Of a stretch of 64,000 nt of DNA, positions 24,447 to 32,753 are shown piece by piece; within the stretch, counting starts at the first letter, position 1, and each line of letters opens with the position of its first letter. The stretch spans positions 62,001 through 126,000 of the forward strand of contig JAJZDI010000005.1 of the NCBI GenBank assembly GCA_021806045.1, given 5' to 3'. The notes below the pieces were generated by a model. The model did not search any database. It was not told the DNA's origin and saw only the letters and a list, made by a program, of their open reading frames with translations. The DNA comes from Actinomycetes bacterium (GTDB taxonomy: Bacteria > Actinomycetota > Acidimicrobiia > Acidimicrobiales > RAAP-2). The translations under genes were made by a program, and so were the position numbers.

Positions 24447-25412
24447 GTGGGCCTGACGAAGGATTCGAGGACGTTGGCTAAGGAGCGGCTGGAGCGAGAT
24501 GACGAGGACCTGGTCCGGCTGTACCTGACGGACATCGGCCAGTACCCGCTTCTCACCAAGGACGACGAGGTCCGGCTGGCCCAGGCCATCGAGGCAGGGC
24601 GCGAAGCGGATGCCGAGCTGGCGTCCGCCCCGAAAGGTCTGACCCCGGCCAAGAAGCGCGAGCTCCGTCGCACCGCGCTCCAGGGTGAGCACGCCCAGCA
24701 GACGTTCGTCCAGTCGAACCTGCGCCTCGTGGTGTCGATCGCGAAGAAGTACCAGGCGTCCGGCCTGCCCCTCCTCGACCTCATCCAGGAGGGGAACCTG
24801 GGGCTCATGCACGCCGTCGAGAAGTTTGACTGGCGCAAGGGGTTCAAGTTCTCCACCTACGCCACGTGGTGGATCCGACAGGCGATCACGCGGGGCATCG
24901 CCAACACGGGCAGGACCATCCGGCTGCCGGTGCACGCCGGCGACACTCTGGCCCGGGTGCAGAAGGCCCAGGCCCGCCTGGAGCTCAAGTTCGGCCGGCC
25001 GGCCACACTCGCCGAGCTGGGTGCCGAAGTGGAGATGCCCGAGGACAAGCTCGTCGAGGCCCTCCGCTTCCGGGCGGAGCCGTTGTCCCTCTCCGAGCCG
25101 CTCCGTGAGGACGGCGACGCCGAGCTCGGCGACGTGGTCGAGGACCGTTCCGCCGAGTCACCCTTCGAGGTGGCGGCCGTGTCCCTTCTGCCCGACGAGA
25201 TCGGCCGGCTCCTGTCCCCGCTCGACGAGCGTGAGCGGGAGATCCTCCGGCTGCGTTTCGGCCTGGATCGCGGTGAGCCGCGCACGCTCGAGGAGGTGGG
25301 CGAGCACTTCAACCTGACCCGGGAGCGGATCCGCCAGATCGAGGCCCGGGCCATGTCGAAGCTCCGCCACCCGTCGTCGGACACGGGGGCACGCGACCTG
25401 CTGACCGTCTGA
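24447..25412 (+). CDS. Sigma-70 family RNA polymerase sigma factor, group 1/2
   Basis: 321 residues. Region 1.2 (DLVRLYLTDIGQYPLL), region 2 (NLRLVVSIAKKYQ, LDLIQEGNLGLMHAVEKFDW, KFSTYATWWIRQAITR), region 3 and region 4 with helix-turn-helix LTRERIRQIEARAMSKLR are all present. There is no long acidic region 1.1, so it is of the SigB/HrdB-related group; whether principal or alternative cannot be told from one gene. GTG 24447 has GGGAG nine bases upstream; TTG 24474 after GAGGA is a realistic alternative start that would drop only nine residues. Confidence 0.9.
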   Translation: MGLTKDSRTLAKERLERDDEDLVRLYLTDIGQYPLLTKDDEVRLAQAIEAGREADAELASAPKGLTPAKKRELRRTALQGEHAQQTFVQSNLRLVVSIAKKYQASGLPLLDLIQEGNLGLMHAVEKFDWRKGFKFSTYATWWIRQAITRGIANTGRTIRLPVHAGDTLARVQKAQARLELKFGRPATLAELGAEVEMPEDKLVEALRFRAEPLSLSEPLREDGDAELGDVVEDRSAESPFEVAAVSLLPDEIGRLLSPLDEREREILRLRFGLDRGEPRTLEEVGEHFNLTRERIRQIEARAMSKLRHPSSDTGARDLLTV

Positions 25413-25489: not shown

Positions 25490-26170
25490 TCAGTCGGGAG
25501 CGGTGAGCCGGTAGCCGGCACCCCGCACGGTGAGGATCAACGGCGCCCTGCCCGCCTCGTTCACCTTGCGACGCAGGTGGCCCACGTAGACGTCGACCAC
25601 GTTGCTGCCCGGCTCGAAGGCGTAGTCCCACACCTGGTCGAGGATCTGGGCCCGCGACAGCACCTGGGTCGGATGGCGCATGAACAGCTCGAGGAGCGCC
25701 CACTCCCGGTGCGAGAGGTCGATGCGGCGGTTGGCTCGCCACGCCACCTTCGAGAGCAGGTCGAGCCGCAGATCGCCCACGGTGAGGACGGTCGCCTCCG
25801 TCTGGACCTCGCTGCGGAGGACGGCACGGATCCGCGCCAGCAACTCCTCGAACGAGAAGGGCTTGGTCATGTAGTCGTTGGCACCGGCATCGAGGCCCAG
25901 CACCTTGTCCGTCACCTCGGCCCGGGCGGTCAGGATGATGACCGGCGTGGTACCCCCGCGCTGCCGGTGGCGACGCAGCACGTCGAGGCCGTCACCCTCG
26001 GCCAGCCCGAGGTCGAGGAGGACCAGACCGATCGACGACCCTTCGGCCCGCAGCACGGCGTCGGCCACCAGCGCCGTGTCGACGATGTCGGTGGCGTGTC
26101 CCTCGGCGCCCAGCCCCTTGCGGAGGAAGGACGCGATGCCTGGGTCATCTTCGACGACGAGGATCCGCAC
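25490..26170 (-). CDS. OmpR/PhoB-family response regulator
   Basis: 226 residues. Complete receiver: Asp8/Asp9, phosphoacceptor Asp53 (VLLDLGLAEGDG), Thr81 and Lys103 (TKPFSFEEL), then a winged helix (about 130-226) ending in TVRGAGYRL. GTG 26170 starts one base after the kinase stop; the ribosome-binding sequence is inside the kinase 3' end. It is last in the nine-gene minus-strand operon and is the natural partner of the adjacent kinase. Confidence 0.93.
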   Translation of the reverse strand: MRILVVEDDPGIASFLRKGLGAEGHATDIVDTALVADAVLRAEGSSIGLVLLDLGLAEGDGLDVLRRHRQRGGTTPVIILTARAEVTDKVLGLDAGANDYMTKPFSFEELLARIRAVLRSEVQTEATVLTVGDLRLDLLSKVAWRANRRIDLSHREWALLELFMRHPTQVLSRAQILDQVWDYAFEPGSNVVDVYVGHLRRKVNEAGRAPLILTVRGAGYRLTAPD

Positions 26171-26171
26171 C

Positions 26172-27617
26172 TCAGATCCCGACCATCTCCACCGGCAGGG
26201 TGGCCCGCACCCGGTCCGGGGGGATCGTGATGGTGGCGCGGCAGCCGCCGAGGGGCGACGACCCGAGCGCGAACGTGCCGCCATGGGCTCGGGCCACCGC
26301 GGCGACGATGGCCAGACCCAGACCACTGCCACCGGAGGCGGCCTGTTCCGGCCGGCCGAAGCGGGCCAACGCCACGGCGATCTGGTCTGGTGCCAGTCCG
26401 GGCCCGCTGTCGTCGACCGAGATGGCCACCCCGCCGTCGGCCTCGAGGGTGGCGGCGATGGCGATGGTGTCGTCCGCTCCGGTGGCCTTCACCGCGTTGT
26501 CGAGCAGGTTCAGCAACGCACCCCGGAGCTTGTCGGCGTCCACGTCGATGACGACGTCGGGCGCTTCCGAACGCGTCCACTGGCGTGGGGCGAGGACCAC
26601 GGCGGCCTCGAAGGTGTCGGCCACCATGGCGCGCAGGTCGACCGGGTGCGTCTCGAGGAAGTCGGGCTCGAGCACCCGGCCGAGCATGAGGAGGCGCTCC
26701 ACCAGGTTGCGCATGTGGTCGAGCTCGTCGATGACCGTCTGCACGGTGGACCGCACCTCGTCAGGGTCCTCGACCCCCACCCGCTGCATCACCTCGAGGT
26801 GGCCCCTGGCGACGGTCAGCGGGGTGCGCATCTGGTGGGAGACGTCCGAGATCAGGCGCCGCTGGGCCTCGATGGCGGCCGACAGGCGGTCGAGCATGCC
26901 GTCGAACGTGGCGGCCAGCTGGCCCACCTCGTCGTCGGTCCCCTGGTCCCCCAGTCGGCGGTCGAGCTCGCCCTGGGCTGCGGCGTCGGCGGCGGCGGTG
27001 ATGCGACCCACGGTGCGCAGCAGCCGCCGCAGGAGCAGATAGGCGGCGACCACGGCGGCCAGAAGGGCGACCACCGCTTCGCCGGCCAGCACGAGCACCA
27101 CCCGGTGCTGGTCCGCCCGGATGCCGGTCAGGTCGGCGGCGGCCACAAGCGTTCCGAGGGTCCGGGTGCCGGACCGGATGGGTGAGACGACGACCAGGAG
27201 AGGCATGCCGCCGGCCGTCAGCTCGTCCGTCGACGTGGTCTGCGGCGGACGGTCCAGGAGGGCCTGGAGCGTGGGATCGGCCAGGAGCGGTCCCGAGCCG
27301 GTGCTCCCCAAGTGGACGGGGCCGGCCAGGCCGACCAGGAGGTAGTCGCCTTTCGGGAGGACCTGGGCCGAGAGGTAGCGGACGGACCGGGCGGCAAGGT
27401 CGGTGGGTGCCGTGCTGCGCACGGTCCCCGCGTACTGGCGGACCTGGGCTGTCAGGTCGTTCGACACGGTGGCCATGGAGTGGGACGTGAAGATGCGCTC
27501 GGTCTCGAAGGTGGTCAGGCCGAGCACGATGGCCAGCAGGACGGCGAGGAACCCGGCGAGGCGCGTCGCCGTGCCCGGCCGCCGGATCCACCCATGACCG
27601 CCAGCGGCAGGTGTCAA
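26172..27617 (-). CDS. Membrane sensor histidine kinase
   Basis: 481 residues. Membrane helix about 18-37, an extracytoplasmic sensor of about 135 residues, a second helix about 172-196, HAMP, then DHp with His261 (LISDVSHQMRTPLTV) and the ATPase domain (NLLDNAVKAT, DDSGPGL, GGSGLGLAI). The start is TTG 27617, whose bases overlap the upstream stop (TTGA), matching the overlapping style of the operon. Co-operonic with the electron-transfer proteins, so it may sense redox state or the exported proteins; that is inference. Confidence 0.9.
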   Translation of the reverse strand: MTPAAGGHGWIRRPGTATRLAGFLAVLLAIVLGLTTFETERIFTSHSMATVSNDLTAQVRQYAGTVRSTAPTDLAARSVRYLSAQVLPKGDYLLVGLAGPVHLGSTGSGPLLADPTLQALLDRPPQTTSTDELTAGGMPLLVVVSPIRSGTRTLGTLVAAADLTGIRADQHRVVLVLAGEAVVALLAAVVAAYLLLRRLLRTVGRITAAADAAAQGELDRRLGDQGTDDEVGQLAATFDGMLDRLSAAIEAQRRLISDVSHQMRTPLTVARGHLEVMQRVGVEDPDEVRSTVQTVIDELDHMRNLVERLLMLGRVLEPDFLETHPVDLRAMVADTFEAAVVLAPRQWTRSEAPDVVIDVDADKLRGALLNLLDNAVKATGADDTIAIAATLEADGGVAISVDDSGPGLAPDQIAVALARFGRPEQAASGGSGLGLAIVAAVARAHGGTFALGSSPLGGCRATITIPPDRVRATLPVEMVGI

Positions 27618-28171
27618 TGGTCCCCGGAGTCCGAGGGGCTGGTGGTGGCCGTGCTCCCGTTCGACCCGCCGTCACCCGATCCGTCCGTCGGCTTGGACGC
27701 CGGCGCCGGCGACGGCGAGTCGCTCCCCGAGCCAGACGTTCCCTGGTCGGCGGTGACAGGTGGGGCCTCGGGCACGGTGGCCGGCGGTGGCTCGGTGGCC
27801 GGCGGTGGCTCGGTGGTCGCCGGTGCCTCGGTGGTCGGCGGTGCGGCACCGCCCTGACCGGACGGGGCGGCCGACCCGTTGGTGTCGGACGGCTCGGTCC
27901 CGTGCTCCACCACCACGGGCCGGGTGGCGGTGACCACCGTCGAGCCGTCGTGGGGGCTGTCGGCCGGTGCCGGCGTCGGCGACGGTCCGACGGCGGCGAC
28001 GTCGACGGCGGGCGGCGCCGGTTCAGCCCGGCTGACCAGGGCCCCACCGAGGCCACCGGCCACCAGCACCGAAGCGACCAGGGCGCCTGCGATCGGCCCC
28101 AGCCACCACGACGGACCCGGGGCACCACTGGCGGTGCCAGCCGTGACGTTGCGGGACGTCTTCGCGCTCAC
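27614..28171 (-). CDS. Single-pass anchored Pro/Thr/Ser-rich exported protein
   Basis: 185 residues. Short cytoplasmic head (VSAKTSRNVTAG), one membrane helix (about 26-46), then a long low-complexity extracytoplasmic tail rich in Pro, Thr, Ser, Ala and Gly (TTEPPPATEPPPAT, SGSGSDSPSP). No cysteine or cofactor motif is seen. GTG 28171 is chosen because it overlaps the ferredoxin stop (GTGA) and has GGAGGG just upstream; ATG codons at 28183 and 28192 are alternatives. It sits between the ferredoxin and the kinase. It could be a spacer or scaffold; no function is evident. Confidence 0.7.
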   Translation of the reverse strand: MSAKTSRNVTAGTASGAPGPSWWLGPIAGALVASVLVAGGLGGALVSRAEPAPPAVDVAAVGPSPTPAPADSPHDGSTVVTATRPVVVEHGTEPSDTNGSAAPSGQGGAAPPTTEAPATTEPPPATEPPPATVPEAPPVTADQGTSGSGSDSPSPAPASKPTDGSGDGGSNGSTATTSPSDSGDH

Positions 28172-28434
28172 CGGGCCCTCCATGCGCTCCATGGTGCCCG
28201 AACGGAGGGCGTCGTGCCCGTCGACTCGCCGGGGACCTCCCTGACGACGATGGCCTGCCGGGGGCACGCAGCCGCAGCGCGACGGAGCCGGCGGGCATCG
28301 CCCGGCTCGTCCACCTCGGCCGTGCCGACCCGGGCGAACCCCCACCCGTCGAGATCGATGGTCTCCGGGGCCAGCAGGGCGCACATGCCGTGTCCCCGGC
28401 AGCGGGTCAGGTCGATCGAGACGCGCACGGTCAT
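28168..28434 (-). CDS. Small ferredoxin with three cluster cysteines
   Basis: 88 residues. Pattern C12-x5-C18 (CRGHGMC) plus Cys57 in ACPRQAI matches single-cluster ferredoxins that bind [3Fe-4S] (SoyB/P450-type); the fourth ligand position is Gly or His. ATG 28434 overlaps the stop of the NuoF-like gene (ATGA), so the two are made together. Likely passes electrons to or from the NuoF-like flavoprotein. Confidence 0.85.
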   Translation of the reverse strand: MTVRVSIDLTRCRGHGMCALLAPETIDLDGWGFARVGTAEVDEPGDARRLRRAAAACPRQAIVVREVPGESTGTTPSVRAPWSAWRAR

Positions 28435-29834
28435 CGGGATGACCTCGCCGGCACGCGTGGCACCGCCAGCCAGCCCCCGGCCGGGCCGGGGGGGCACGGG
28501 ATCCCTGCGCGGTGCCGGTCGGCGTCCGCTCCGGACGCCCGGAGCGCGGACGAGAGGAGATGGGCGGCACCGTCGGGAAGGTGGCAGGCGCCCCGCCCGG
28601 GCAGGTCCTCGAGGAGTCGGAGCATCTGGCGCTGCGAGCGCCGGCTGGTGCGCCCGCGGGCCAGCCCGGCGGCCGAGGCGGTGAGGATGGGTAGGCCCTG
28701 GACGCACGGCCCGCACTGGCCGGCCGATCCGGCGGTGAGGAACTCGAGGAGCCGCGCCGTCTCGGCCAGCACGCACGCTCCAAGTGGCAGCACGCCGATG
28801 ACGCCGCTGCCCAGGCTCGCTCCCACGGTCCGCAGCCCGGCGGCGTCGAGCGGCAGTTGCAGCGCGGTTTGGCCGTCGACCCAGGTGCCTGCGTAGCCAC
28901 CGATGAGCACGGCGCCCGGTGCGCCGGGCACGCCGGCGGTGCTGAGCACGTCCGCCACCGAGGCGGGACCCGACACCTCGAAGACGCGTCCCGGCTCGGC
29001 GACCGCGCCCACCACGGTCACCAGGCGCGTGCCGGGCGTGGACGGGCTGCCGAGCCCGGCCCACAGCTCGGGGCCCACTCGCGTGATCATGGCGACATGG
29101 GCCACCGTCTCGACGTTGTAGACGAGGACCGGTCGGCCGCCCCCCGGTCCTTCGGTGGCGAGCGGCCGGCGGTGGGGGAAGGGAACCGGCGGACCACCGG
29201 CCAGCATCGATGCCACCGCGCTGGCCTCCCCGCTGACGTAGGAGTCGGGCCCGACGGTGATGTGCCACCGGGGATCGGCCACCCCCCGCTGGCGGCGCTC
29301 GTCGGCGGCCGCCCGGAGCGCGGCGATGGTCCCGTCTGAACCGCGGTGGACGTGCACGATGGCCTCGGCGGCCCCCGCCGCCCACACGATCAGGGCCAGC
29401 CCGTCGAGGACGAGATGAGGACGGAGCTGGCAGAGGAGGCGGTCCTTGCCGCTGGCCGGCTCGCTCTCGCTGGCGTTGACCACCACCAAGGGGGGCGTGA
29501 CGGCGGCCCGGGCAGTGGCGAGCTTGGCCGCCGAGGGGAAGGCGCCCCCACCCCGTCCCGTCAGGCCGGCCGCCTCGATGGCGGCGAGGATCGCCTCAGG
29601 GGCCAGATGGAGTCCGGCGGGTCCGAGCCGGGCGAGGTGGGCGTCGAGCGACTCCGCTCCGGCACCGGCCGGCGGCCCGGCCAGGAGCAGTGCGCCCGGT
29701 GCGCCGGGCATCGCCACGTGCCCGGCACGCGGCCCGTCGTGGCGCGCCTCGTGGCGATGGAAGTTGCGAGGCGGCATGGCGGAGTGGTTGGGGGTGGGGC
29801 GGGAGATGGGCTCGTGGCCTGCGGCACCGTTCAT
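28431..29834 (-). CDS. NuoF-like flavoprotein with SLBB domain
   Basis: 467 residues. Fits the 51-kDa NADH-dehydrogenase fold: FMN/NADH motif GLTGRGGGAFPSAAK, NASESEPASGKDR, GPDSYVSGEASAV and YNVETVAHV, then SLBB. The C-terminal Fe-S region has GQCGPCVQG and GACHLPDG, but the first ligand of the usual SCGxCxPC is Ala, leaving three cysteines. The cluster may therefore be [3Fe-4S] or absent. The N-terminal ~60 residues are His/Pro-rich and unlike NuoF. ATG 29834 overlaps the stop of the cytochrome gene. Probably the cytoplasmic electron entry point of the module; NADH use is inferred from family. Confidence 0.82.
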   Translation of the reverse strand: MNGAAGHEPISRPTPNHSAMPPRNFHRHEARHDGPRAGHVAMPGAPGALLLAGPPAGAGAESLDAHLARLGPAGLHLAPEAILAAIEAAGLTGRGGGAFPSAAKLATARAAVTPPLVVVNASESEPASGKDRLLCQLRPHLVLDGLALIVWAAGAAEAIVHVHRGSDGTIAALRAAADERRQRGVADPRWHITVGPDSYVSGEASAVASMLAGGPPVPFPHRRPLATEGPGGGRPVLVYNVETVAHVAMITRVGPELWAGLGSPSTPGTRLVTVVGAVAEPGRVFEVSGPASVADVLSTAGVPGAPGAVLIGGYAGTWVDGQTALQLPLDAAGLRTVGASLGSGVIGVLPLGACVLAETARLLEFLTAGSAGQCGPCVQGLPILTASAAGLARGRTSRRSQRQMLRLLEDLPGRGACHLPDGAAHLLSSALRASGADADRHRAGIPCPPGPAGGWLAVPRVPARSSR

Positions 29835-30739
29835 CGGACGGCGTCCTGGTGGTGGGGCCAGGCTGCCGTCGGGTGATCAGGCTGCCCGAACGGGGGCAGC
29901 GCCACCGGGGGGGTGCGCCCCGCGGCGACGCTGGATGCGCCGCCGGCCGCGGGCCACGCCACCGGGGAGGTCGGAACCGGTGCCGGGACCGTTGTATTCG
30001 CCGCTGCCGGTGTGTGCCATGGAGCCGTGCCAGCAGGCTGCACTGTCGACGGCTGGGCGGTCGACGGCTGCACTGTCGACGGCTGCACAGGGGGCTGGAC
30101 GGGCTCGGGCACGGGCCGGGAGCGACCGGCCAGCGCGCGGGTGGCGGCCACGAGGGAGACGAGCACGATGGTGGCGGCGTAGACGAGCCGGAGGGAGGCG
30201 GTGTCACTTCCGGCGGTGATCCCGTGCCAGGCGGACACGGCGAAGATCCCCAGGCTGAGTTGGTGGACCGGGTACCAGGCGTGCCGGCCCACGATGCCGG
30301 CGAGGGCTGCCGTGGCCGTGGTGAGGACGATCCCGTAGAGAGCCAGCGTCCCGAGGGTCACGGCAGCGGGCCGGTAGGTGGCGTGGCCGGGGAGGAACAC
30401 CCCCGCCCAGCCGACGCCCGCGTAGCGGTCGAGCGCGAGGGCGGTCACGTGCCCGGCGACGAGGACGACGGTGGCGGCTGCCAGCACGGCGTGGAAGCGG
30501 AGGCGGGTGGCGCGACCGACGGCCCGATGGGTGGCCCACGGATGTCGGAACCACAGCCCGGCCGTCACCAGCGCGGTGAGGGACAGGTAGGAGGCGACGC
30601 CGAGACCGCGCCCGGCGATCCACGGGAACATCCGGTTGTGGACCAGCGGCGACGTGGCGACGGCGAGCCAGTGGCCGGCCAGGACCGACCCGACGATGAC
30701 GGCGCCGGCCGTCAGCGATGTCCGGTTGCCGGCCTTCAT
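29831..30739 (-). CDS. Ferric-reductase-like transmembrane cytochrome b
   Basis: 302 residues. Six predicted membrane helices in the first ~220 residues. Two pairs of helix histidines fit the bis-heme pattern of the FRE/YedZ family: H-x13-H in RFHAVLAAATVVLVAGH and H-x12-H in HQLSLGIFAVSAWH. The C-terminal ~80 residues are a Pro/Thr/Gln/Val repeat tail (QPSTVQPSTAQPSTVQP). It would carry electrons across the membrane from the flavoprotein/ferredoxin pair. ATG 30739 overlaps the apbE stop by four bases. Confidence 0.85.
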   Translation of the reverse strand: MKAGNRTSLTAGAVIVGSVLAGHWLAVATSPLVHNRMFPWIAGRGLGVASYLSLTALVTAGLWFRHPWATHRAVGRATRLRFHAVLAAATVVLVAGHVTALALDRYAGVGWAGVFLPGHATYRPAAVTLGTLALYGIVLTTATAALAGIVGRHAWYPVHQLSLGIFAVSAWHGITAGSDTASLRLVYAATIVLVSLVAATRALAGRSRPVPEPVQPPVQPSTVQPSTAQPSTVQPAGTAPWHTPAAANTTVPAPVPTSPVAWPAAGGASSVAAGRTPPVALPPFGQPDHPTAAWPHHQDAVR

Positions 30740-31719
30740 CGGGCGACCCAGGTGAGCGACGGTGCCATCGACCGGCTCCAGGCGACCTCTCCCGCCTCGG
30801 TCACCCACAGGGCGGCGAGGCCTCGCCGTGCGGCGGCCGCCGCGATGCCAGCGGCCCCGGCCAGGAACAGGGACTTGCTCCACACCTCGGCGGCGGCGGG
30901 GTCCCGGCCCACCACGGTCACCGCGGCCAGCCCCTCGCCGCCGGGCTCGCCGGTGGCCGGATCGATGAGGTGGTGGACGGCCCGCCCGCCCGCCCGCCAG
31001 CGCCGGACCCGGGTCGATGAGGTCGCGCAGGCCCGATCCACGAGGCTGACGACGGCGACGGGCTCGGTGCCCCCGGCGGGGTCCTCCACGCCCACCATCC
31101 AGGCGTCTGCGTCGTCCGGCCGCCCGACGGCGATGCAGTCGCCACCGGCCTCGATCAGCCCGCCGCCGGTATCGGCCAGCTCGGCCGCCGCCCAACGGAG
31201 CGCCAGGCCCTTGCCGATCCCTCCGAGATCGACGGCGTCGGGACCGAGGAGGACCTCAGGGCTCGGACCACCGCGCAGGCGAGGTCGCCACGGCCCCCGC
31301 CGCATGGGCCCGGTTCGCTGGTGCGCCGCACGGCGGGTCGCCGGAACTGCCCCCGGCCTCCCGATGTCGGTGAAGGTGCGGTCGTAGCCCAGTGCCACCA
31401 ACCGGTCGTGCACCCTCGGGTCGAACGTGCCGCCGGTCGCCTGGTGCGCCGAGTGCGCGGCATGGAGTGCCCGGAAGCAGGTCTGGTCGACACGCTGCCA
31501 GCGGTCCGGGTGGCGGTTGGCGACCGACAGCGGGCTGCGCTCGTCGAATCGTGAGCACGAGTGGTCGACGGCGGTGAACACATCGAGCGCTGCCCGGGCC
31601 GCCTGCTCGGCCGCTGGACCCGTCGTAGCGGTCCGCACGGAGACGCGGGTGCCCATCGCCCGTCGGGACAGGACGAGGTCGGTGTGCCCGGAGGTGTCCG
31701 CCAGCGGATCAGGGGACAT
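30736..31719 (-). CDS. apbE: FAD:protein FMN transferase
   Basis: 327 residues. ApbE attaches FMN from FAD to a Ser/Thr of exported proteins. Motifs: RRAMGTRVSV near the start, FDPRVHDRL, DLGGIGKGLA and HHLIDPATGEP (metal and FAD binding). No signal peptide or lipobox, so it may act in the cytoplasm or be exported by another route. A degenerate Arg/Pro-rich stretch (about 135-155) replaces part of the usual insert. ATG 31719 lies 11 bases inside the upstream gene. No protein in the window has a canonical FMN-binding domain for it to modify. Confidence 0.9.
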   Translation of the reverse strand: MSPDPLADTSGHTDLVLSRRAMGTRVSVRTATTGPAAEQAARAALDVFTAVDHSCSRFDERSPLSVANRHPDRWQRVDQTCFRALHAAHSAHQATGGTFDPRVHDRLVALGYDRTFTDIGRPGAVPATRRAAHQRTGPMRRGPWRPRLRGGPSPEVLLGPDAVDLGGIGKGLALRWAAAELADTGGGLIEAGGDCIAVGRPDDADAWMVGVEDPAGGTEPVAVVSLVDRACATSSTRVRRWRAGGRAVHHLIDPATGEPGGEGLAAVTVVGRDPAAAEVWSKSLFLAGAAGIAAAAARRGLAALWVTEAGEVAWSRSMAPSLTWVAR

Positions 31720-32188
31720 AGGACGCGCCGGTGGTGGCGTGGGTGGGAGGCGGTGGCGCCGGCGCGGCGCGGACGGGTGCCGGTGCTGGCGCGGCCGCCT
31801 GGACCGGCACGGGGGTCGGTGCGGGCGCGGGTTCGGTGGCCACGGGTGCCGATGCCTGTGCGGACAGTGCGGAGATCGCTGCCTGCTCTGCAGCGATCTG
31901 TTGGCGGAGCTGGGCGATCCTGGCCAGCTGCTCGGCCTCCTGGCGCGCCAGCGCCGGCTCGGTCGTGGTGGTGGTCGCCACCACCGGCTGGGTGGCGGTC
32001 GCCGGCGCCGCCGGCGCGGTCGCCGCCGGGGGGTGCGACGCGGCCAGGACCGGCGTAGTGGTGGCCGCCCACGTGACGGCCAGCCCGGTGATGGCCGCCG
32101 AGGTCGCTACGGCCGCCGCCGGCGCCCGGAGGCGCCGGCGGTCACCACTGGCCTTGTCGAGCCCGCTCCCGGGGACGGCCTCAGCCAT
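31709..32188 (-). CDS. Exported coiled-coil Ala/Pro-rich protein
   Basis: 159 residues. Membrane or signal helix (about 22-48), a charged coiled-coil segment (EAEQLARIAQLRQQIAAEQ), then an Ala/Pro/Val-rich tail ending in TTGASYVP. That end loosely resembles the ApbE modification motif SGATYTS, but the modified Thr would be Val. The gene overlaps the next (apbE) by 11 bases and the previous by 8. Its pairing with apbE is why I mention it; no family recognised. Confidence 0.68.
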   Translation of the reverse strand: MAEAVPGSGLDKASGDRRRLRAPAAAVATSAAITGLAVTWAATTTPVLAASHPPAATAPAAPATATQPVVATTTTTEPALARQEAEQLARIAQLRQQIAAEQAAISALSAQASAPVATEPAPAPTPVPVQAAAPAPAPVRAAPAPPPPTHATTGASYVP

Positions 32189-32753
32189 CAGAGGAGCCCG
32201 ACGATCCCGACGATCCCGACGAGGAGTCGGGGCTCCTGTCGGAGCCCGACCCCGAGGTCGTGGTGCCAGAGCCCGACCCCGAGGTCGTGCCCGATCCTGT
32301 CCCGGACGAGGACCCGGACGTCGACGTGCCGCCCCACTCGGTGGCGTCGGAGCCCCGGTGGTCGTCGCCGTAGCTCCCGCTGCCCGAGCTGCCTTCCGAG
32401 GGCTCGGACGGTTCGGTCCACGTCGGCGTGGTCACGGGCGGCGCCGTCACCGGCGGAGGCGTCGTCACCGGTGGTGTCGTCGTCGGTGGGGCTGCTTCGC
32501 GCGCCGCCGCCGCCGCCTTGGCCGCCGCCAGCTGCTTGTCGAGGCTGGCCTTCTCGGCGGCCAGGCCGTTGATCGTGTTGCCGAGGGTGTCCTGCGTCGA
32601 GGACGGCGCCGGTGTGGTGACCGTCGTGTGGGTCGGGCTCGTGGTCGTCACCGCCGGGTGGGACGGGGCCGAGGGTGCGGCCGTTGCCACCCCTCCGGCG
32701 ACCAGCCCCGCTGACGCTGCGATGCCGACGATCCAGGGCTTGAGTGGCGACAT
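32181..32753 (-). CDS. Exported Ser/Gly/Thr-rich protein, first gene of redox operon
   Basis: 190 residues. Signal peptide-like N-terminus (MSPLKPWIVGIAASAGLVAGGVATAA, cut near residue 26), a short coiled coil (INGLAAEKASLDKQLAAAK), a Thr/Pro stretch and a C-terminal Ser/Gly-rich low-complexity region. No cofactor motif. ATG 32753 has GGAGG seven bases upstream, the clearest ribosome-binding site in the operon, supporting this as the first gene. Shares the helix-plus-tail design of the proteins at 31709 and 27614. Confidence 0.72.
   Translation of the reverse strand: MSPLKPWIVGIAASAGLVAGGVATAAPSAPSHPAVTTTSPTHTTVTTPAPSSTQDTLGNTINGLAAEKASLDKQLAAAKAAAAAREAAPPTTTPPVTTPPPVTAPPVTTPTWTEPSEPSEGSSGSGSYGDDHRGSDATEWGGTSTSGSSSGTGSGTTSGSGSGTTTSGSGSDRSPDSSSGSSGSSGSSDG

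Follow-up and report, generated by a model that had tools for sequence, protein, structure and literature searches.

Which protein carries the flavin in an operon that encodes the flavin-attaching enzyme ApbE and no FMN_bind protein? The question is raised by a locus in a stretch of 64,000 nucleotides (nt) from an Actinomycetes bacterium (GCA_021806045.1, contig JAJZDI010000005.1), hereafter the window, to which all coordinates refer unless another contig is named. The operon (25490-32753) comprises nine genes, all on the minus strand and read from 32753 down to 25490; seven of their junctions overlap by 4 to 16 nt and the kinase-regulator pair is separated by a 1-nt gap. Coordinates and Pfam matches bear out the preliminary description of this DNA, which had proposed a nine-gene electron-transfer operon with ApbE, with junctions that all overlap or almost touch and without an FMN_bind protein (PF04205 had no match in any of the nine proteins in the Pfam scan). 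Its further suggestion, that the substrate is unusual or encoded elsewhere, holds in its first half only, since the likely substrate lies within the operon: P2, the second of its "exported low-complexity" proteins, which has an ApbE motif at its C-terminus. We consider it likely that the operon represents an outward electron-transfer chain, the last carrier of which is flavin mononucleotide (FMN) that ApbE attaches to a C-terminal tag of P2.

C-terminal tails of P2 and its relatives

The proposed flavin carrier P2 (31709-32188, minus strand) is a protein of 159 amino acids (aa) with a basic N-terminus, a membrane helix, a second helix, a low-complexity linker and the tail THATTGASYVP, its C-terminus reading PPPPTHATTGASYVP. 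The candidate tag TGAS (31721-31732, minus strand) fits the motif [S/T]GA[S/T], which is recognized by ApbE and receives FMN on its last residue (PMC8238504; PMC12052999), so that the tag serine is the predicted FMN site. For ApbE to act, seven residues suffice as a tag, and the best position for it is a terminus (PMC12052999). A single-sequence model of P2 places helices at residues 10-43 and 77-113, followed by a coil end, and has no FMN_bind-like fold, which is weak evidence by itself.

Related ApbE loci are common in the phylum, throughout which the arrangement recurs; in them the gene directly upstream of apbE encodes a single N-in/C-out membrane helix, a low-complexity linker and a C-terminal [ST]x[GAS]S tag. 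The first locus set brought together 60 regions centred on NuoF-like hits, another 60 that surround matches to the ApbE-group profile in 396 genomes of the phylum, two Solirubrobacterales loci, a locus on contig C28 of the window genome and the window itself; 77 loci carry the ApbE group. P2 was assigned in 67/77, by position but partly by eye. The assigned proteins have a basic N-terminus, one membrane helix and an Ala/Pro/Thr/Ser-rich linker, with an N-in/C-out orientation predicted in 66/67. Their sequences diverge widely, yet their ends agree (VVSGGS, VTTGGS, ASSGAS, TRSGGS, SRAS, TRTS).

For a test of these tails, seven cysteine-tailed and four near-identical proteins were removed beforehand, and the expectation was taken from shuffles of each protein's own tail. 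Among the 56 non-redundant Ser-tailed proteins that were left, [ST].[GAS]S is found within the last 8 residues in 47 (5.5 expected) and as the exact C-terminus in 33 (1.4 expected), while [ST]G[AG][ST] lies within the last 10 residues in 21 (0.8 expected). The control, a low-complexity gene further upstream, presents the motif in 3/39 proteins; several of these 39 are plainly other genes, P1 of the window is among the three hits, and two of the three resemble tandem P2 copies. Shuffles and neighbouring-gene control together led us to reject plain low complexity as the origin of the TGAS tail. As a background value, the fetched DNA has 10,337 closed frames that are 80 codons or longer; [ST]GA[ST] occurs in the last 10 residues of 27 of these, and seven of the 27 are P2.

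A held-out test was based on a fixed rule, by which all frames on the strand of apbE whose end falls between 130 nt ahead of the projected ApbE start and 45 nt beyond it were collected and the one with the most hydrophobic helix was taken. The rule was then tried on 60 fresh loci belonging to the same class; 12 gave no candidate, and the remaining 48 were all counted. The motif is present in 23 of the 48 rule-picked proteins (4.5 expected, P about 2e-15). The other 25 consist of seven near-misses (SGQS twice, TGPS twice, TKTS, SGST and TGAT, the last two with Thr where the rule demanded Ser), 11 cysteine-flanked tails and seven proteins resembling other genes. Plasmids add a further sample: six of 488 matching records were opened after the motif had been set, from Rhodococcus qingshengii, two Arthrobacter, Gordonia polyisoprenivorans, Cnuibacter physcomitrellae and a Streptomyces sp. 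All six P2 frames, chosen by position and by eye, end in the motif (SAGS, TRAS, TRAS, TAAS, TKGS, SGGS). Five of them are missing from the gene table of their record (a table that is itself incomplete), and in 5/6 plasmids apbE is followed by the ferric-reductase-like, NuoF-like and ferredoxin genes, matching the window.

Tail-type relatives of the window's P2, both divergent, were met in the fresh set (L281 and L282), ending in THATTGASVVVP and HTTTGATVVIP. We rejected the idea that overlap with the start of apbE dictates the TGAS tail, as these two loci keep the tail although neither ATG nor GTG occurs between 20 nt ahead of the P2 stop and 35 nt past it (the check left out TTG).

Other arrangements were also observed. 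One locus (L020) has two tandem P2 genes upstream of apbE, both with SGGS ends. Cysteine-loop ends, such as CYTSPSGNVTCY, CHTSASGTFLGCW and CSGSKCP, occupy the P2 position in L013, L015, L018, L019, L105, L110 and L152, and in the fresh loci L240-L245, L266, L267, L272, L273 and L277; most enclose a Ser-Gly core, and they are common in the window's own family. At L116, L121, L123 and L125 the group apbE was found with no ferric reductase detected, beside a protein ending in Ser (SGQS, SRHS, SQSS, SDAS), whose lipoprotein-like start is clear in L116, L121 and L125; these proteins may represent a further carrier that bears a tag of this kind.

The P2 tail might instead serve a different partner as a docking or processing signal, the target of ApbE being some other protein of the operon or genome. 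Such an explanation would suit the cysteine-tailed variants, which show a conserved protein end even without the Ser tag, and also two large genomes of one genus (L016, L017), where genes for P2 (SRGS), the membrane protein and the NuoF-like protein stand together with no apbE detected, the group apbE being located elsewhere in the genome (L101, L102). We nevertheless find it improbable, as the gene marked by the motif is the one immediately preceding apbE, and the motif in its best versions equals that of ApbE. Among the other substrates, DUF2271 was rejected after 0/50 genomes were found to have it, and no search was made for DUF3570, NqrB/RnfD or flavodoxin-type substrates.

The ApbE group and FMN_bind proteins

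The window ApbE (30736-31719, minus strand, 327 aa) matches PF02424 across the whole profile (E-value = 5.8e-46). The catalytic triad of ApbE is Asp-Ser-His (PMC12052999). Ser and His are retained in the window enzyme (CATSST, HHLIDP), while the triad Asp is replaced by Glu and a nearby Thr by Lys, and the N-terminus is not hydrophobic. The whole group (n = 77) keeps the triad Ser in 74 members and the His in 75; the Asp position has Glu (50), Asn (18) or Asp (nine), and the nearby Thr position is taken by Lys in 36 and Thr in 35. None of the 60 fresh members has the triad Asp. Canonical enzymes (those of the 30 loci with the highest PF02424 scores in the phylum, and the one on contig C26 of the window genome) have it in 31/31. 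A hydrophobic stretch before the ApbE domain was detected in 1/83 group members versus 24/30 canonical ones, by a hydropathy test rather than a signal-peptide predictor; judged by this N-terminal feature, the group is therefore probably cytosolic. A tree of 97 group members, drawn from the first set and, for every third locus number, from the fresh set, splits them from 31 canonical enzymes without error (support 0.976), partly by construction, since the two sets were gathered by different profiles. No clean rule was found between tail type and active-site type.

Altered active sites leave room for a different reaction, in which the divergent ApbE would act on the P2 tail with another group or chemistry, e.g., adenosine monophosphate or a metal-free mechanism, P2 then being no usual flavin carrier. 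The replacement of the triad Asp in 68/77 members, the change of the nearby Thr to Lys in 36/77 and the relaxed tail motif speak for it. We regard it as unlikely all the same, considering that Ser and His of the triad are nearly always kept, and that a heme electron-transfer protein adjoins in 68/77 loci, which fits a redox modification.

The window genome (3.1 Mb, 43 contigs, 97% complete) contains three apbE loci and one FMN_bind gene. The latter came out of the genome-wide search that the preliminary description had recommended; it is located on contig C26 (G000:C26:6384-6611) and lies beside its own canonical apbE and a longer ferric reductase. The C26 system includes an exported S/T/P-rich stalk with a folded FMN_bind domain at its end, bearing GVSGATYTS. 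An FMN_bind gene elsewhere in the genome with matching regulation had been named as a finding that would speak against an unusual substrate, and an FMN_bind gene as such does exist; its neighbour, though, is a canonical ApbE of its own, and the window ApbE belongs to a separate group. The third locus, on contig C28 (L009, 6195-11987), is a paralogue of the window operon and encodes a short exported protein, ApbE, a membrane protein, a NuoF-like protein, ferredoxin, kinase and regulator, without FMN_bind; the tail of its P2 is STGSSGF and its ApbE is of the Asn/Thr type. An Nqr or Rnf complex, of which the FMN_bind protein NqrC/RnfG is a subunit, was not found, the genome's only FMN_bind gene being that of C26; no search was made for NqrB/RnfD.

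FMN_bind was sought in genomes with the group ApbE using Pfam's own profile. It was not found in any of the six frames in 53/62 genomes of a sample made up of 61 of the 63 group-ApbE genomes of the first search plus one other, nor in 19/33 of a second sample, a choice of 32 genomes from the fresh-locus search plus the window's, which shares one genome with the former. It is present in 8/63 genomes with the group ApbE versus 117/333 without. Where a genome has both, the two are on separate contigs or no less than about 78 kb from each other; in seven of the nine FMN_bind-positive genomes of the 62-genome sample, a distinct ApbE match lies no more than about 1 kb from the FMN_bind gene. An FMN_bind protein acting in trans as substrate was rejected, given the C26 gene's own ApbE and the rarity of FMN_bind in group genomes: the explanation that the window ApbE serves the C26 protein and that the P2 tail is a low-complexity coincidence, although such a gene exists, ApbE is able to act in trans in principle and P2 is of low complexity, earns little credence when a canonical ApbE already adjoins that gene, most group genomes lack FMN_bind, and a motif that neither shuffles nor the neighbouring control gene reproduce recurs in fresh loci.

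Proposed electron path and operon neighbours

The ferric-reductase-like membrane protein (29831-30739, minus strand, 302 aa, with a low-complexity C-terminal extension) has no Pfam match of its own and was recognized by a profile of homologues, of which 4/6 scanned pass the PF01794 cut-off. Four His (83, 97, 159, 172) are invariant in 42 aligned homologues and are placed on two helices of a six-helix model, most of the core of which has a predicted local distance difference test score (pLDDT) above 90; alignment and model thus support the earlier "bis-heme" label as a predicted trait. In a fold search of the PDB, STEAP2, NOX5 and a bacterial NOX ranked first, with no E-value below 0.001. Most homologues measure 173 to 264 residues from aligned start to stop, and no NAD-binding match was obtained in the seven sequences scanned. 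The gene was detected in 68/77 loci. On the donor side, the NuoF-like flavoprotein (28431-29834, minus strand, 467 aa) matches Complex1_51K (E-value = 3.6e-31) and NADH_4Fe-4S, with a nuoF_fam score under the family cut-off, and the ferredoxin (28168-28434, minus strand, 88 aa) matches Fer4_15 (E-value = 4.5e-12) and contains CxxHxxC...CP, which we take to be the [3Fe-4S] type.

From gene content, tail conservation, the ApbE group with its active-site pattern, predicted topology and FMN_bind rarity we infer the following path. The NuoF-like protein would oxidize NADH (reduced nicotinamide adenine dinucleotide), and electrons would move by way of ferredoxin to the bis-heme protein and across the membrane, where FMN on the Ser (or Thr) near the P2 end would take them up. 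P2 would be a membrane-anchored flexible stalk that carries the FMN to an outside acceptor. The probably cytosolic variant ApbE may use a bare C-terminal tag instead of a folded FMN_bind loop. As the predicted location is inside the cell for ApbE and outside for the tail, the tag probably receives its FMN inside, before the unfolded tail is exported. Tagging inside followed by threading out would reconcile the two locations and explain the absence of a folded flavin domain and is the boldest part of the proposal. The wider reading, a natural C-terminal flavin tag served by a widespread cytosolic ApbE branch of Actinobacteria whose active site is rewired (Asp/Thr changed to Glu/Lys, Glu/Thr or Asn/Thr), which would place FMN before export on the ends of unfolded, membrane-anchored stalks acting as swinging arms fed by the bis-heme protein, is in our judgment evenly poised between right and wrong.

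Several observations weigh against the flavin-tag proposal. The predicted location of ApbE inside and of the P2 tail outside is a topological difficulty, and in the window enzyme, with Glu for the triad Asp and Lys for the nearby Thr, the reaction could be altered. P2 could not be assigned in 10/77 loci (L101, L102, L113, L116, L121, L123, L125, L128, L135, L155), and cysteine tails replace the Ser tag in 7/67 proteins of the first set and 11/48 fresh ones. Many tails depart from the published motif, with Gly at the second position in 22/56 and Ala at the third in only 12/56. The residue six before the predicted FMN serine is His in the window (HATTGAS) and Asp in the published motif; this Asp was called strictly conserved, yet its change to Ala has only a minor effect (PMC12052999). 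Finally, a NuoF-like gene is present in only 19/77 loci, 17 of them chosen or built on NuoF, so the NuoF-ferredoxin donor is a trait of the window's subtype and not of the whole group.

The outside acceptor may be a metal, a guess drawn from the acidic, often His-containing tails of P1-type proteins and the Met-rich ones of the Streptomyces record. P1 itself (32181-32753, minus strand, 190 aa) is an exported or anchored low-complexity protein with the C-terminal GSSGSSDG; it holds the place that an acidic-tailed protein has in related operons, though its own tail is hardly acidic. Of 39 related proteins from this position, the second gene upstream of apbE, 29 have two or more D/E among their last four residues. 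Related loci thus have here a second small membrane protein that is conserved and whose tail is acidic (GDDDD, EGRDDDD) and in some cases rich in His; the versions in the Streptomyces record L224 are Met-rich. This tail looks like a metal-binding one. Near some clusters, membrane proteins of about 240-270 aa (L006, L007), DUF2231-annotated genes (plasmid loci L220 and L223) and a VIT-family gene (L223) were observed, neighbours that may point to metal handling.

The remaining genes of the operon are those of the anchored P/T/S-rich protein P7 (27614-28183, minus strand, 189 aa, tail SPSDSGDH), which has no match in Pfam or NCBIfam, a sensor histidine kinase (26172-27617, minus strand, 481 aa, TTG start; HisKA, HATPase_c and HAMP in Pfam) and a response regulator (25490-26170, minus strand, 226 aa, GTG start; Response_reg and Trans_reg_C). 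No promoter of the operon was seen in a simple sigma-70 scan. Convergent with the operon end lies what is by sequence a sigma-70-family sigma factor gene (24447-25412, plus strand), and nothing ties it to the operon.

Known flavinylation systems

Known ApbE substrates include FMN_bind (with bis-heme membrane proteins), DUF2271, DUF3570, FMN_red and Flavodoxin_4, in addition to engineered tags (PMC8238504; PMC10979944; PMC12052999). Searches of an open-access collection, in which most subscription papers are missing, turned up no description of a natural tail-only substrate. The survey of 2021 reported genomes with "orphan" apbE, their substrates unidentified, and discarded clusters in which no target gene had a signal peptide or lipid site (PMC8238504); this filter would tend to leave clusters of the window type out. 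If the proposal is true, a tail tag on small, easily overlooked proteins would account for many ApbE genes of Actinomycetota without an apparent target. A redox flavin could then work without a folded domain, the FMN having no protein fold of its own around it, and a pair of tag and enzyme with a different specificity would be at hand for protein labelling.

Among the closest known systems, the MsrQ-like flavinylation systems, which include 31 clusters with a NuoF-like protein, share with the window operon an ApbE, a NuoF-like NADH oxidizer and, as predicted for the window, a PF01794-type bis-heme membrane protein, and are mainly from Actinobacteria (PMC8238504); their NAD(P)H donor module is present in the window as the NuoF-like protein. 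The window operon differs from them in having a putative tail-tagged stalk instead of FMN_bind (a typical, not universal partner), a short membrane protein without an NAD domain, and a probably cytosolic ApbE with a variant active site. FMN_red proteins likewise have the flavinylation motif in a disordered C-terminal stretch, but their flavin folds back into a domain that binds flavin, which P2 does not have, and the hosts are mostly Firmicutes (PMC10979944). The engineered flavin-tag demonstrates that a short terminal tag suffices for ApbE; it combines the canonical enzyme and motif, whereas the window case would be a natural one with a divergent ApbE (PMC12052999). The C26 system of the same genome has ApbE, a ferric reductase and an exported S/T/P-rich stalk in common with the window operon and differs in the folded FMN_bind domain on the stalk end and the canonical ApbE. 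Compared with all these, the window operon appears to be a familiar chain with a new class of substrate and a distinct group of ApbE.

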